From positions 1,426,001 through 1,490,000 of the forward strand of contig NZ_CP033367.1 of NCBI RefSeq assembly GCF_013170845.1: a stretch of 64,000 nucleotides of DNA, written 5' to 3'. The notes below the pieces were generated by a model. The model was not told where the DNA came from and searched no databases. It saw only the letters and a list, made by a program, of their open reading frames with translations. The DNA comes from Mesorhizobium loti R88b (GTDB lineage Bacteria; Pseudomonadota; Alphaproteobacteria; Rhizobiales; Rhizobiaceae). Numbering within the stretch: the first letter of the stretch is position 1; every line of letters starts with the position of its first letter. This document shows, piece by piece, positions 678 through 38,780 of the stretch. The position numbers were made by a program, and so were the translations under genes.

Positions 678-1370
678 ATGTTCGCAGTCATTAAAACGGG
701 CGGTAAGCAGTATCGCGTTGCCGCCAACGATCTCCTGAAGATCGAAAAAGTCGAAGCCAATGTCGGCGATATCGTCGAAATCGGCCACGTGCTCGCGCAT
801 GGCGAGGGCGACAATGTCACGTTCGGCGCGCCGTTCGTCAATGGCGCTCTGGTCACCGCCGAAGTCGTCGAGCAGGGCAAGAACCGCACGGTCATCGCTT
901 TCAAGAAGCGCCGCCGCCAGAATTCGCGCCGCAAGATCGGCCATCGCCAGCTTTTGACCACCGTGCGGATCTCCGAGATCCTGCTGGATGGCGCAAAGCC
1001 GACGAAGACGGCAGCGGTGAAGGCACCGAAGAAGGAAGCCAAGGCCGAAGTGGCCCCCGAGGCTAAGGCCGAGGCCGCGCCGAAGGAAGCCAAGGCCAAG
1101 AAGGAAGCTGCCCCCAAGGCAGAAGTGACGGCCGAGACGGCCGCTGCTCCGCTGTTCAAGGCGCCGAAGGGCGAGCCGGACGACCTGACCGTGATCAAGG
1201 GCATCGGCCCGGTCGCCGCCAAGGATCTCGCCGAGCAGGGCATCATCACTTTCGCGCAGCTCGCCAAGCTCTCCGACAAGGATGTCGCCAAGATCGACGA
1301 GCACATGCCCTTCAGCGCCGACCAGATCAAGGACTGGCGCGAACAGGCCAAGGAACTGGCGAAGAAGTAA
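678..1370 (+). CDS. rplU: 50S ribosomal protein L21 with C-terminal helix-hairpin-helix extension
   Basis: 230 residues, about twice the usual L21 length. Residues 1-105 are canonical L21 ([14 protein letters not shown] start, basic [17 protein letters not shown] segment that contacts 23S rRNA). Residues 106-163 are a low-complexity Ala/Lys/Glu linker, and 168-230 form a helix-hairpin-helix module with the [10 protein letters not shown] signature. I recall such extended L21 proteins as typical of rhizobia. The ATG at 678 is chosen over an upstream TTG because it begins the conserved protein and has a GAAAGG site. rpmA follows 98 bases downstream. The tail resembles the one on LivG at 34857-36341. 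L21 binds 23S rRNA domain structures; the role of the tail is unknown. Confidence 0.97.
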
Positions 1371-31907: not shown

Positions 31908-32354
31908 TCCGGAACAGGGCAATTGTCCCTCGATTGGCAGCCAGACAAGCGCAGCTGCATTGAACACCATCGCCGTCGAGGCCAGCCAGTCGTTCAGACA
32001 CGGCTTTGAGGTCAGGCAGGAGGAATCCTGACCCAACGGAAAGGAGTGTGGCGAAAAAGTGAACCGTGTCAGGAACGCAACGATTCTTCTCATCACCTAA
32101 TTTTGACGGTGGTTTCTTCGAAACGAAGCGCATTATGTGTCTGAATCATCAAAGACATTGCGTTATGCCAATGATAGGGTCCGCGATAGTCCAGGGGTCG
32201 GGTACAAAAAACGGGCGATCGGAAAGGCGTGCTTCGAAAACACGCATGGCGATCAAAAAATCACGTTGCAATCCGGGCTCGAAACTTTACGACTAGGGGA
32301 AATACGAAAAGGAATGCGTCTGCATGGGCGACATTCCAGGGGAGCCATGTACAC
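31908..32354. other. 447-base intergenic region before livH
   Basis: No gene found. GGTCAGG (32010-32016) and CCTGACC (32027-32033) make a perfect seven-base hairpin without a T-run. The rest is AT-richer than its surroundings and probably carries the liv promoter. An open frame opposite the hairpin (31896-32096) shows no codon signal and is not called. Confidence 0.5.
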
Positions 32355-33257
32355 ATGCAGTATTTTGTCCAGCAGCTTATCAACGGGCTGACGCTGGGAT
32401 CGATCTATGGGCTGATCGCGATCGGCTACACGATGGTCTACGGCATCATCGGCATGATCAATTTCGCCCATGGCGATATCTTCATGGTGGGCGCCTTCGC
32501 GGCGCTGATCGTTTTCCTGATCCTCACGTCGCTGTTTTATTCGGTGCCCGTGGTCATCGCGCTGCTGGTCATGATGATCGTGGCGATGCTGCTGACCAGC
32601 CTCTACAACTGGACGATCGAGAAGGTGGCCTACCGGCCGCTGCGCGGTTCGTTCCGGCTGGCGCCGCTGATCACCGCCATCGGCATGTCGATCGCGCTGT
32701 CGAATTTCGTCCAGGTGACGCAGGGCCCGCGCAACAAGCCGATCCCGCCGATGGTATCGCAGGTCTACAACATCGACGGCGTCAGCGTGTCGCTGAAGCA
32801 GATCATCATCGTCATTGTCACCGCGCTGCTGCTGGCGCTGTTCTGGTACCTGGTCAACAAGACCTCGCTTGGCCGCGCCCAGCGCGCCTGCGAACAGGAC
32901 CGTAAGATGGCGGCGCTGCTCGGCATCGATGTCGATCGCACCATCTCGATCACCTTCATCATGGGCGCAGCCCTTGCCGCCGTCGCCGGTACGCTGTTCC
33001 TGATGTATTACGGCGTCGTTGCCTTCTCCGACGGCTTCACACCTGGCGTGAAGGCCTTCACGGCGGCGGTGCTCGGCGGCATCGGCTCACTGCCAGGTGC
33101 CGTGCTCGGCGGGCTGTTGATCGGCTTTATCGAGAGCATGTGGTCGGCGTATTTCTCGATCGATTACAAGGACGTCGCGGCGTTCTCGATCCTGGCAATC
33201 GTGCTGATCTTCCTGCCTTCCGGCATTCTGGGCCGGCCAGAAGTCGAAAAGGTCTGA
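32355..33257 (+). CDS. livH: Branched-chain amino acid ABC transporter permease LivH
   Basis: 300 residues with about eight hydrophobic segments. [41 protein letters not shown] is the LivH hallmark, and [29 protein letters not shown] contains the EAA-like loop for the ATPases. Start ATG 32355 with GGGGAG upstream; a minor ATG 8 bases earlier would give only a 14-residue peptide. First gene of livHMGF. Confidence 0.96.
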
Positions 33258-33261
33258 GACC

Positions 33262-34857
33262 ATGGCCGTCACCGTATCTCCCGAGCGCGACACCGTCGCC
33301 ACCCCTGTCCAACGCGCCCTCAAGGAAGCGTTCTATGCCGGCGCCATCTCGCTTGGCCTGTTCGTGCTGTTCATCGGCCTGAAGACCGGTCAGAACATGC
33401 GCAATGAACTGGTCGTGACGACACGCTGGGGCCTGCTCGCGGCCGTGGTGATTGCCACCGCCGTCGGCCGCTTCCTCTATATCGCCTATGGCCAGCCCTT
33501 CATGGCCAGCCAAAAGATAACCAACGTTGCCACCGGCCTGTTGCCGGCGAGCGTAGCGTCACGGTTCTTCCAGTTGCCGTGGTTCATCGCGGCAGCCGTC
33601 GCCGCGGTGCTGCTGTTCGCGGTCAATAGCTCTCTCGCCGGATGGGTGGGAGCGGAAGCGGCCGGCTACCTGCAGTTCCTGCGCGCGCTGGCGGTCATCT
33701 ATGTGCTGGCCAGCGTGATCTACTATTTCCGCGCTTTCATCCACACCAACTTCACCAAATTGGGCATCACAGCGCTGGTGCTGTACCCCATTCTGGTGGT
33801 CGTGGTGCTGTCGCTGAACGCCTGGTCGATCACTGGCGGGCTGCAGGGTTCGCTGAAATGGGTCGATAATTTCGGCATCCAGATCCTGATCTATGTGATG
33901 CTGGCCTGGGGCCTGAACATCGTCGTTGGCCTCGCCGGCCTGCTCGATCTCGGCTACGTCGCCTTCTATGCACTTGGCGCCTATGCGTATGCGCTTCTCG
34001 CCACGCAGTTCGGCCTGTCGTTCTGGATACTGTTGCCGGCCGCTGGGGCCATGGCTGCGCTGTGGGGCGTGCTGCTCGGTTTCCCCGTGCTGCGCCTGCG
34101 TGGCGACTATCTGGCGATCGTGACGCTGGCTTTCGGCGAGATCATCCGCCTGGTGCTGATCAACTGGCGCGAGGTCACCAACGGGTCGGCCGGCATTTCC
34201 GGCATTCCCAAAGTCAGCTTCTTCGGCCTGATGTCGTTCAACGTGTCGGACCCGAACTACATCGCCAAGGTGCTGCACATCGCCCAGTCAGGCGCCTACT
34301 ACAAGATTTTCCTCTACTATCTGATCCTGGGCCTGTGCCTGCTCACCGCCTTCGTCACCGTCAGGCTGCGCCGTCTGCCGGTCGGCCGCGCATGGGAAGC
34401 ACTGCGCGAGGACGAAATCGCCTGCCGCTCGCTTGGCATCAACACGACGACGACCAAGCTGACGGCCTTTGCCACCGGTGCCATGTTCGGTGGCTTCGCC
34501 GGCTCTTTCTTCGCCGCGCGGCAAGGCTTCGTCAGCCCCGAATCCTTCGTCTTCCTGGAATCCGCCATCATCCTTGCCATCGTCGTTCTCGGCGGCATGG
34601 GCTCCCTGGTCGGCATCGCGGTTGCCGCGATGGTGATGATCGGCGGCACCGAGGCGCTGCGCGAACTCGATTTCCTCAAGCAGATCTTCGGGGACGATTT
34701 CACCCCGGAACTCTACCGCATGCTTCTGTTCGGCATGGCCATGGTGATCGTCATGCTGTGGAAGCCGCGCGGTTTCGTCGGCAGTCGTGAACCAACCGCC
34801 TTCCTCAAGGAGCGAAGGGCTGTCTCCGGTTCCTTCACCAAGGAGGGCCACGGCTGA
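33262..34857 (+). CDS. livM: Branched-chain amino acid ABC transporter permease LivM
   Basis: 531 residues, longer than the roughly 420 of E. coli LivM because of an extra N-terminal membrane region (residues about 1-190 with three to four spans). The core begins at [39 protein letters not shown], followed by [29 protein letters not shown], and ends [22 protein letters not shown]. Partners LivH in the membrane. Its TGA overlaps livG's ATG by one base (TGATG), suggesting coupled translation. Confidence 0.95.
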
Positions 34858-36340
34858 TGAACGCGAGCACACCAATGAACGGCGCTATCCTGCAGGTCGA
34901 TCACCTGTCGATGAAGTTCGGCGGCCTTGTCGCCATCGGCGACCTGTCCTTCACCGCCAAGCGCGGCGAGATCACGGCGCTGATCGGACCCAACGGCGCC
35001 GGCAAGACGACCGTGTTCAACTGCATCACCGGTTTCTACAAGCCGTCAGAAGGCATGATCACGCTCAACCGAGCCGACGGCTCGTCTTACCTGCTCGAAC
35101 GTCTGCCCAATCATGAGATTCCGGCGCGCGCCAAGGTGGCGCGTACCTTCCAGAACATCCGCCTGTTCTCTGGCATGACGCTGCTGGAGAACCTGCTGGT
35201 TGCCCAACACAACAAGCTGATGAAGGCATCGGGCTATACGATCTTGGGCCTGTTCGGCTTCAGCGGCTACCGCAAGGCCTCAGCAGAATCGGTGGAGCTT
35301 GCCAAGCACTGGCTGGAGAAGGCCGATCTCGTAGACCGTGCCGACGACCCGGCCGGCGACCTGCCCTATGGTGCGCAGCGGCGCCTCGAGATCGCGCGTG
35401 CCATGTGCACCGGTCCCGAGCTTCTGTGTCTCGACGAGCCGGCGGCCGGCCTCAATCCGAAGGAATCGGCGGCGCTCAACGAACTGCTGATCGACATCAA
35501 GAACACATCGGGCACCTCGATCCTGCTGATCGAGCATGACATGTCCGTGGTCATGCAGATTTCGGACCATGTCGTGGTGCTGGAATATGGTCGCAAGATT
35601 TCCGACGGCAATCCGCAGTCGGTGCGCACCGATCCGCGCGTCATCGCCGCCTATCTCGGCGTCGACGACGATGAGGTCGAGACCGTTCTGACCGAGGTCG
35701 GCGACGAGGATGTCATCGAACAGCTCGATACGGGTCCTGACTCCGCGCATGGCCCGGGGACATCGTCGTCATATCTTGCCGGGCCGGTGAGCGATACCGT
35801 CGGGCACAGCACCGGCGAGCGTGTGACCGTGTCGAAGGGCGCCTCGAAGGCGGCTCAGGTCGACGCCCGTGCCGCCAGCGTGGCGAGCAAGCCTGTCGTG
35901 CCGCCGACTCCGGCCAAGCCAGCCGCGAAGGCGGGCGCGGCGAAAGCAGCACCAAGGAAAACGGCCGCCAAGACGCCCGTCGCGAAAGCCGAAGGCATTT
36001 CGAACCGCCTCGCTGCCCCGCGGGGCGGCAAGGCCGACAATCTGACCCGCATCAAGGGCATCGGCACGGTCAACGAGAAGAAGCTCAACGAACACGGCAT
36101 CTTCCACTTCGACCAGATCGGCGCCTGGAAGAAGGCCGACGTCGAGGCGGCCGAAGCCTATCTCGCCTTTGACGGACGCATTGCGCGTGAGGAATGGGTC
36201 AAGCAGGCCAAACTGCTCGGCCAGGGCAAGGATACGGAATTCTCGCGCCGCGTCGATGCGGGCAAGGTGGCGACCAGCCATGCTGCCGCAAAGACTGCCG
36301 CTGTCAAACCCGCGGCGGGCAAGCGCGGAGGGAGCAAGTG

Positions 36341-36341
<1 letters not shown>
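34857..36341 (+). CDS. livG: LivG ATPase fused to a C-terminal helix-hairpin-helix module
   Basis: 494 residues against about 255 for ordinary LivG. The ABC domain spans 1-270: Walker A GPNGAGKTT (44-52), a signature that reads LPYGAQRRLEIARAM (LivG-typical, not LSGGQ), Walker B LLCLDEPAAGL, H-loop LLIEHDMSVV. Residues 280-385 form an Ala/Lys/Pro-rich linker. Residues 394-455 carry ADNLTRIKGIGTVNEKKLNEHG then FHFDQIGAW, a helix-hairpin-helix domain similar to the L21 tail at 1170-1370. The ATPase drives uptake of Leu, Ile, Val; the role of the tail is unknown. One-base overlaps with livM and livF argue it is one intact gene. Confidence 0.95.
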
Positions 36342-37069
<728 letters not shown>

Positions 37070-37179: not shown

Positions 37180-37527
37180 ATGCAAGGCATTCTCTACGAG
37201 GAACCGTCGATCTGGCAGTTCTTCTTCGTCACCTGCCTGCTCGGCGGCTGGGCGGCATGGATGACCGGCAAGGCCAGCGCCCAGACATGGCGCAGCTTTC
37301 CGCAGCTGTTCGTCTATATGCTCGGCCTTGGCATCGGCATCCGCTTCATCCATCACGCGCTGTTCAACGGCACGATGTTTTCGCTGCACTACTATATCGT
37401 CGACACCATCGTGCTGATGATACTGGGCTTCGTCGGCTATCAATACACACGAACCAACCAGATGGTCACACAGTATAATTGGCTCTACGAAAGAGCTTCA
37501 ATCTTGAGCTGGAAACCGAAAGGTTGA
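37180..37527 (+). CDS. Small membrane protein of the liv locus (DUF6867-like)
   Basis: 115 residues with three hydrophobic segments: IWQFFFVTCLLGGWAAWMTG, PQLFVYMLGLGIGIRFIHHAL and YYIVDTIVLMILGFVGYQYTR. It ends QMVTQYNWLYERASILSWKPKG. It matches, from memory, a rhizobial family (DUF6867) found between livF and livJ. The position suggests an accessory to branched-chain amino acid transport, but no biochemical role is known to me. The ATG has AAGGAG upstream. Confidence 0.85.
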   Translation: MQGILYEEPSIWQFFFVTCLLGGWAAWMTGKASAQTWRSFPQLFVYMLGLGIGIRFIHHALFNGTMFSLHYYIVDTIVLMILGFVGYQYTRTNQMVTQYNWLYERASILSWKPKG

Positions 37528-37643: not shown

Positions 37644-37668
37644 TCCGTTAATGGGAGCGTTTAAATGA
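37621..37668 (+). CDS. Possible 15-residue upstream ORF overlapping livJ
   Basis: ATG at 37621 to TGA at 37666-37668, encoding [15 protein letters not shown]; its TGA overlaps livJ's ATG as ATGA. AAGGG lies 10 bases upstream. It contains one Leu and no Ile or Val, so it is not a classical attenuation peptide. Could be chance; translation is unproven. Confidence 0.3.
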
Positions 37669-38780
37669 AAAAGTCACTTTTGTCCGCCGTGGCCCTGACC
37701 GCGCTTGTCGCGTTCGGCGGCAACGCGTGGGCTGATGTAATATTCGGCGTTGCCGGTCCGATCACCGGCCCGAACGCGGCCTTCGGCGCACAGCTGCAGA
37801 AGGGCGCCGAGGCTGCCGTGGCCGCGATCAACGCTAAGGGCGGCGTCAATGGCGAGCAGATCAAGCTCGAAGTCGGCGACGACGTCTCCGATCCGAAGCA
37901 GGGCATCTCGGTCGCCAACAAGTTCGTCGGCGACGGTGTCAAGTTCGTGATCGGCCACTTCAACTCGGGCGTGTCGATCCCGGCCTCGGAAGTCTACGCT
38001 GAAAACAACATCGTCGAAATCACGCCGGCCGCAACCAACCCGAAGTTCACCGAGCGTGGCTTGTGGAACGTGTTCCGCACCTGCGGACGCGACGATCAGC
38101 AGGGCAGCATCGCCGGCGCCTATATCGCCGCGAATTTCAAGGATGCCAAGGTCGCCGTCGTGCACGACAAGACCCCTTATGGCCAGGGCCTTGCCGACGA
38201 AACCAAGAAGGCGATGAATGCCGCTGGCGTCACGGAAGTGATGTATGAAGGCATCAATGTCGGCGACAAGGACTTCTCGGCGCTGATCGCCAAGATGAAG
38301 GAAGCCGGCGTCACCCTGATCTACTGGGGTGGCCTGCACACCGAAGCCGGCCTGATCATCCGCCAGTCCGCGGACCAGGGCCTCAAGGCAACGATGATGT
38401 CGGGCGACGGCATCGTGACGGACGAGCTTGCCGCGATCGCGGGCGACGCCGTCGCCGGTACGCTCAACACGTTCGGACCCGATCCGCGCCTGATCCCGGC
38501 CAACAAGGAACTCGTCGAGAAGTTCCGTGCGCAGGGCTTCGAGCCGGAAGCTTACACGCTCTACGCCTATGCCGCCGTGCAGGTGGTCGCCGAGGCGGCC
38601 GCTGCCGCCAAGACGAACGACCCGCAGGCCGTTGCCAAGGCGATGCATGAAAGCGGCCCGTTCCCCACCGTCCTGGGCGATCTTGCCTATGACGCCAAGG
38701 GTGATCCGAAGCTGCCGGGCTACATCATGTACGAGTGGAAGAAGAAGGACGACGGAAAGTATTCCTGGTTCCCGAAATAA
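37665..38780 (+). CDS. livJ: Branched-chain amino acid ABC transporter binding protein
   Basis: 371 residues. Signal peptide 1-23 ([20 protein letters not shown]) then a type-I periplasmic binding fold: [58 protein letters not shown] and [21 protein letters not shown], all LivJ/LivK hallmarks. Delivers Leu/Ile/Val to LivHM. GGGAG ribosome site eight bases upstream. Followed by a strong terminator; separate leader suggests its own promoter and higher expression. Confidence 0.96.

Follow-up and report, generated by a model that had tools for sequence, protein, structure and literature searches.

Why should the ATPase of an amino acid importer end in a helix-hairpin-helix (HhH) module? The question is raised by a livG-type gene for the ATPase of a branched-chain amino acid ATP-binding cassette (ABC) transporter, which lies at 34857..36341 on the plus strand of a 64,000-nucleotide stretch (the window) of the Mesorhizobium loti R88b genome (contig NZ_CP033367.1, positions 1,426,001 to 1,490,000) and encodes a protein of 494 aa. 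The E. coli-type LivG (NF008449) has the ABC domain, the LivG-type C-terminal motif and the operon context in common with it, but its model is 255 residues long, whereas R88b LivG has about 220 extra residues. As set out below, the tail consists of an HhH module that is mobile among alphaproteobacterial proteins and is borne on a long and variable linker; profile matches place this module in a single sequence family with those at the C-termini of NuoE, bL21, uS2 and PhaH.

A single gene for ATPase, linker and module

The open reading frame (ORF) at 34857-36341 (+) is read through for 494 codons without an internal stop and overlaps each neighbour by one base, base 34857 being common to the livM stop and the livG ATG, and base 36341 to the livG stop and the livF ATG. 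A preliminary description of this DNA had proposed a LivG of 494 residues with a linker and an HhH domain at residues about 395-415, encoded by one gene and not produced by misassembly. Length and linker are as described, the motif (LTRIKGIGTVNEKKLNEHG, 36042..36098) is placed by its sequence and by comparison of copies at residues about 396-414, and the single frame, the one-base overlaps and the repetition of the fusion in independent genomes all speak for one gene; this repetition also rules out that a frameshift or a misassembly joined two genes. Among 151 genomes of the same family, the 40 top-scoring module rows (163 to 92 bits, the next row scoring 82.6) are LivG-type copies, of which 38 were confirmed as a single frame with LivG and module, one of them (G016) from the adjoining coordinates of its module and LivG matches; the two unconfirmed rows are G077, at a contig start, and G035, in a 233-aa frame. 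The tail, whose possible absence from close relatives the same description had considered, is present in them: 61 of the 69 named loci carry LivG with the module, a figure biased by the use of the LivG copy as query.

From its N-terminus, and with all coordinates on the plus strand, the protein comprises an ABC ATPase domain at residues 29-196 (34941..35444; PF00005, ABC_tran, E 1.7e-30, 106.8 bits against a Pfam cut-off of 25) and a LivG-type C-terminal ABC motif at residues 246-271 (35592..35669; PF12399, BCA_ABC_TP_C, 38.5 bits against a cut-off of 25.5). These are followed by an acidic segment recognised from the sequence and its relatives (residues 271-330, 35667..35846), in which 13 of 60 residues are D or E and which holds a conserved HGP..SSS...GPVSDT-type motif; this motif is more or less kept also in LivGs that have no module (L047, L048, L052, L057, L060). 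An Ala/Lys/Pro-rich linker, defined by composition (residues 331-387, 35847..36017; 20 A, 8 K and 7 P of 57), differs in length and sequence among relatives and leads to the folded HhH module of about 70 aa (residues 388-457, 36018..36227), which is kept in relatives, and to a C-terminal tail that is basic by composition (residues 458-494, 36228..36338; 9 K/R, 3 D/E). Structure prediction, which the preliminary description had proposed as a check, models the module as a compact fold (predicted local distance difference test score, pLDDT, 93.1). The full-length model has a mean pLDDT of 33 even over the ABC domain, a result blamed on a 21-row alignment in which all but one row are at least 89% identical to the query; it is uninformative, and no conclusion on linker disorder is drawn from it.

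One module on many carriers

The preliminary description was right that a linker and an HhH domain are fused to LivG in a single gene; it did not see that the tail is a member of a wider family of mobile modules. The NuoE model PRK12373 aligns by its C-terminal end with residues 328-468 of LivG (E 6e-29 with the whole protein), and the LivG copy hits the NCBIfam models for NuoE (E 5e-26), bL21 (5e-18), uS2 (3e-15) and PhaH (1e-11), in each case at the C-terminal end of the model. All four models are matched by 74/74 module copies scanned, which is a consistency check and not a blind test, since the copies had been chosen as matches to a profile of eight copies. In Pfam scans of the LivG protein and of its module the tail gave no match; HHH_5 was matched at E<=0.01 by 35 of the 74 copies, and among the matches of these copies there was no Pfam or NCBIfam domain model specific to the module. 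When the predicted structure of the module is compared with solved structures (Foldseek), HhH domains rank first, without significant E-values and with no match at E<=0.001. The predicted fold appears similar to the HhH-type folds of the RadA/Rad51 N-terminal domain and of NusA AR2. Identity to these is low (about 10-24%), and they are inherent parts of a recombinase and of a transcription factor rather than mobile additions. The G-x-G hairpin of the DNA-binding HhH type is kept, its glycines being present in 73/73 and 72/73 copies; Q, W and R residues of the module are conserved as well.

The closest solved chain by sequence is protein-O of the reaction centre-light-harvesting 1 (RC-LH1) complex of Dinoroseobacter shibae (PDB 8yy9 chain O, E 1e-18), followed by 9wqv_a, which bears the name of a 41 kd subunit of complex I (E 1e-13). 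Protein-O, whose gene stands between nuoE and nuoF, has a C-terminal domain homologous to the module; unlike LivG, it is a membrane subunit with two helices in a photosynthetic complex. Its C-terminal domain is not visible in the cryo-electron microscopy map, and the authors of the structural report call the functions of this domain and its likes obscure (PMC12079452). The NuoE with a C-terminal extension (PRK12373) gives the LivG tail its strongest profile match and likewise has an Ala/Lys/Pro-type linker and a place in a membrane-associated complex, whereas its carrier is a complex I subunit; a function of this extension was not found in the literature searched. The modules of bL21 (PRK12278) and uS2 (PRK12311) belong to the same C-terminal family but, unlike LivG, their carriers are ribosomal. 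The phasin PhaH (NF045508, Caulobacter) has, like LivG, a C-terminal HhH module of this sequence family; its N-terminal part sits on polyhydroxybutyrate (PHB) granules, whereas the carrier here is an ABC transporter ATPase, for which DNA binding is proposed by homology. R88b LivG itself falls outside the PhaH phasins, as none of the five matches in the genome scores over 250 bits and the LivG match spans only positions 114-231 of the model.

Five module copies were found in the R88b genome at E<=10, on LivG, bL21, NuoE, a nuo-operon protein of 231 aa and an N-terminally membrane-anchored protein of 272 aa, and these different carriers rule out an oddity of LivG only. The bL21 copy is in the window: rplU (678..1370, +, start inferred) encodes the ribosomal protein with a linker of the Ala/Lys type and a module of the same kind at about 1176-1367, which passes Pfam HHH_5 (28.2 bits against a cut-off of 27). 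In seven genomes of the same family, for which only copies with given loci were considered, the ABC ATPase carriers are of the LivG type, of the dipeptide type with a C-terminal module, and of the polar-amino-acid type with an N-terminal module, and the remaining carriers are NuoE, bL21, proteins of the nuo operon and membrane anchors bearing a single module or two. In four single examples the carrier type is confirmed by Pfam and NCBIfam: a dipeptide-type ATPase (L073), a GlnQ-like ATPase (L066), a PHB depolymerase (L248) and uS2 (L222).

Individual copies show how varied these arrangements are. Dipeptide-type ABC ATPases with a C-terminal module are seen in L073, L083, L084 and L260, polar-amino-acid-type ones with an N-terminal module in L066 and L089, the class of L089 resting on its sequence; P0120, a LivG-type ATPase of 626 aa, bears two modules in tandem. 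An intracellular PHB depolymerase of the PhaZ type with a C-terminal module (L248:28-1701) is a second link to PHB granules besides PhaH. N-terminal hydrophobic segments followed by two to four modules with long linkers between them are found in P0002, P0003, L065, L067 and L223. In P0002, a membrane protein in which four modules can be counted by eye, the source name is that of a flap-endonuclease-like 5' nuclease; a nuclease activity, suggested by this name, was rejected for LivG, which has no nuclease domain among its Pfam matches. In L091/L097 and L199, the next gene after that for a module-bearing NuoE encodes a small membrane protein that also bears a module, in the same gene place as RC-LH1 protein-O.

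At the level of the order, 60 distinct module frames comprise 19 with a strongly hydrophobic segment ahead of the module, 16 NuoE, 13 bL21, 4 uS2, 1 PHB depolymerase, 1 dipeptide-type ATPase and 6 others, one of these being the end piece of a truncated NuoE frame. This mix is biased, as the 60 regions were picked by hand, top down and with some skipped, from the survey rows without a locus, and the loci supplied with the survey, mostly NuoE and membrane anchors, are outside the count. No LivG is among the 60 order-level frames, so in this sample the LivG fusion is a feature of closer relatives.

The literature searched, in which subscription journals were mostly outside coverage, yielded no paper that deals with the LivG fusion or with the whole module family. 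The module is known from separate cases (NuoE, bL21, uS2, PhaH, protein-O); neither its fusion to LivG nor its wide range of carriers, several ABC ATPases among them, was found in print in these searches.

Distribution, selection and gene context

With the single LivG module as query, the module was found at E<=1e-3 in 135/151 genomes of the same family, and the carriers named in this way include Mesorhizobium, Aminobacter, Pseudaminobacter and Brucella/Ochrobactrum. Using alignment A1, it was found in 77/81 genomes of the order (E<=1e-4), in 6/58 genomes of the class and in 30/150 genomes of the phylum (E<=1e-6), 28 of the latter being in the same class and the two matches outside it being weak (E 1.3e-9 and 4.9e-8). 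LivG orthologues at E<=1e-100 are present in 75/151 same-family genomes, and more distant LivGs of the family often have no module. A tree of 58 LivG ATPase domains, built from 78 loci, of which those lacking a frame of the searched pattern and those duplicating the core of another row were dropped, holds 37 rows with the module and 21 without; the presence of the module, labelled by hidden Markov model, needs at least 8 changes, 5 of which are forced by well-supported branches. Because the module is present on both sides of the midpoint root, the tree suits an early fusion with repeated loss, though some regain may also have occurred. On the module tree (73 columns, 164 rows, 75 open forks, and used only for this clustering) the 35 LivG rows need 3 changes against a shuffled mean of 32.3, which suggests that LivG fusion events were few.

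The LivG fusion is conserved and its module is under purifying selection. Among 37 Mesorhizobium-like LivGs, the median ratio of non-synonymous to synonymous substitution rates (dN/dS; at most 666 pairs, which are not independent) is 0.076 in the ABC domain, 0.061 in the acidic segment and 0.085 in the module, compared to 0.188 in the linker and 0.209 in the tail. The acidic segment, kept without the module and low in dN/dS, may have a role of its own. In 88 LivGs, between 53 and 332 residues separate the end of the ABC domain from the module; an unchanging folded domain on a connector that is free to vary in length would fit the need of a tether.

The best NCBIfam model listed for the 494-aa protein is LivG (NF008449; 323.7 bits, the next one 177.4), and because this score is under the curated cut-off of 362 the protein is filed as LivG-type and not as the E. 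coli equivalog. The assignment to the LivG type is upheld by both Pfam domains, which exceed their cut-offs, and by an operon with LivH, LivM, LivF and LivK types. On the plus strand these are a livH-type permease (32355..33257; PF02653, best NCBIfam model LivH, start inferred within ORF 32229-33257), a livM-type permease (33262..34857; NF008450, 393.9 bits against a cut-off of 366), a livF-type ATPase without the module (36341..37069; Pfam and NCBIfam), a DUF6867 protein of the same operon (37180..37527; PF21741, E 9.5e-37) and a livK-type substrate-binding protein (37665..38780; PF13458, NF011933). LivG-like ATPases gave 15 matches at E<=1e-25 in the R88b genome, with 150 of 299 candidates scored and the protein itself included, and the 494-aa LivG is the only one of them that coincides with any of the five module positions.

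What the module may hold on to

We read the LivG tail, tentatively and with a little less than even confidence, as a flexible tether in the cytoplasm, with DNA as its most likely target. In this reading, the ATPase would do its usual work within the LivFGHMK importer. The module, carried on a basic linker, would touch nucleoid DNA weakly and regardless of sequence from the cytoplasmic side of the membrane, and these contacts would tether the importer or bias its position, as PhaH is reported to do for PHB granules. PhaH is the single relative of the module for which a reported function was found: in a review, its C-terminal part is described as binding DNA non-specifically via an HhH domain and its N-terminal part as binding PHB granules, which are thereby lined along the nucleoid (PMC13052382). 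It is from homology to PhaH that weak DNA contacts are proposed for the LivG module, and a DNA tether, raised among other ideas in the preliminary description, gains support from the same homology. The linker is basic, with a mean net charge of +6.8 over 60 residues (+4.7 for a slightly different stretch). Several features of the family weigh against a DNA tether: the module itself is near neutral and nearly uncharged, that of bL21 is net negative, and many membrane-anchored relatives have acidic linkers. To these is added a Glu in the second helix of the HhH motif in 62/73 copies, which is unusual at that place by the HhH consensus.

Since the fold is equally like NusA AR2 and the module nearly uncharged, protein docking is a close rival, and one that is quite possible, if on balance doubtful. 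The HhH fold would bind a common partner or its own copies, thereby gathering transporters, complex I, ribosomes and granules in shared zones; against such docking speak a G-x-G hairpin of nucleic-acid-binding HhH motifs that is kept almost without exception, and PhaH being said to bind DNA, and no partner is known. An improbable alternative is contact with RNA or the ribosome, in which the module would bind RNA as ribosomal HhH proteins do and couple membrane complexes to translation: bL21 and uS2 are among the carriers, a weak profile similarity links the module to ribosomal eL32 (E 0.002) and a few members match uS13 models, but most carriers seen are non-ribosomal, PhaH is reported as a DNA binder and the bL21 module is negatively charged. 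That the tail is a dispensable appendage, neutral or weakly stabilising and hitchhiking on LivG, would account for the 21 of 58 tree rows without a module, including a clade of 13 plain LivGs, yet is very improbable given that the dN/dS of the module is close to the ATPase value, that the module is tightly conserved next to a rapidly changing linker and that attachment to certain carriers recurs.

Beyond LivG, it is conceivable, though rather unlikely, that Rhizobiales-type Alphaproteobacteria tie many large assemblies to the nucleoid or to each other by one mobile HhH module on long strings, in a general cell-organising tether system that would take in ABC importers, complex I, light-harvesting complexes, ribosomes, PHB granules and membrane anchors; no description of such a system as a whole was found in the literature searched. 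If the module does bind DNA, the extra domains on NuoE, bL21, uS2 and RC-LH1 protein-O would be explained, and importers, complex I and ribosomes would be linked to the chromosome by evolved tethers, beyond coupled transcription, translation and insertion. In that case, one domain would make the nucleoid-membrane organisation of Alphaproteobacteria directly testable.
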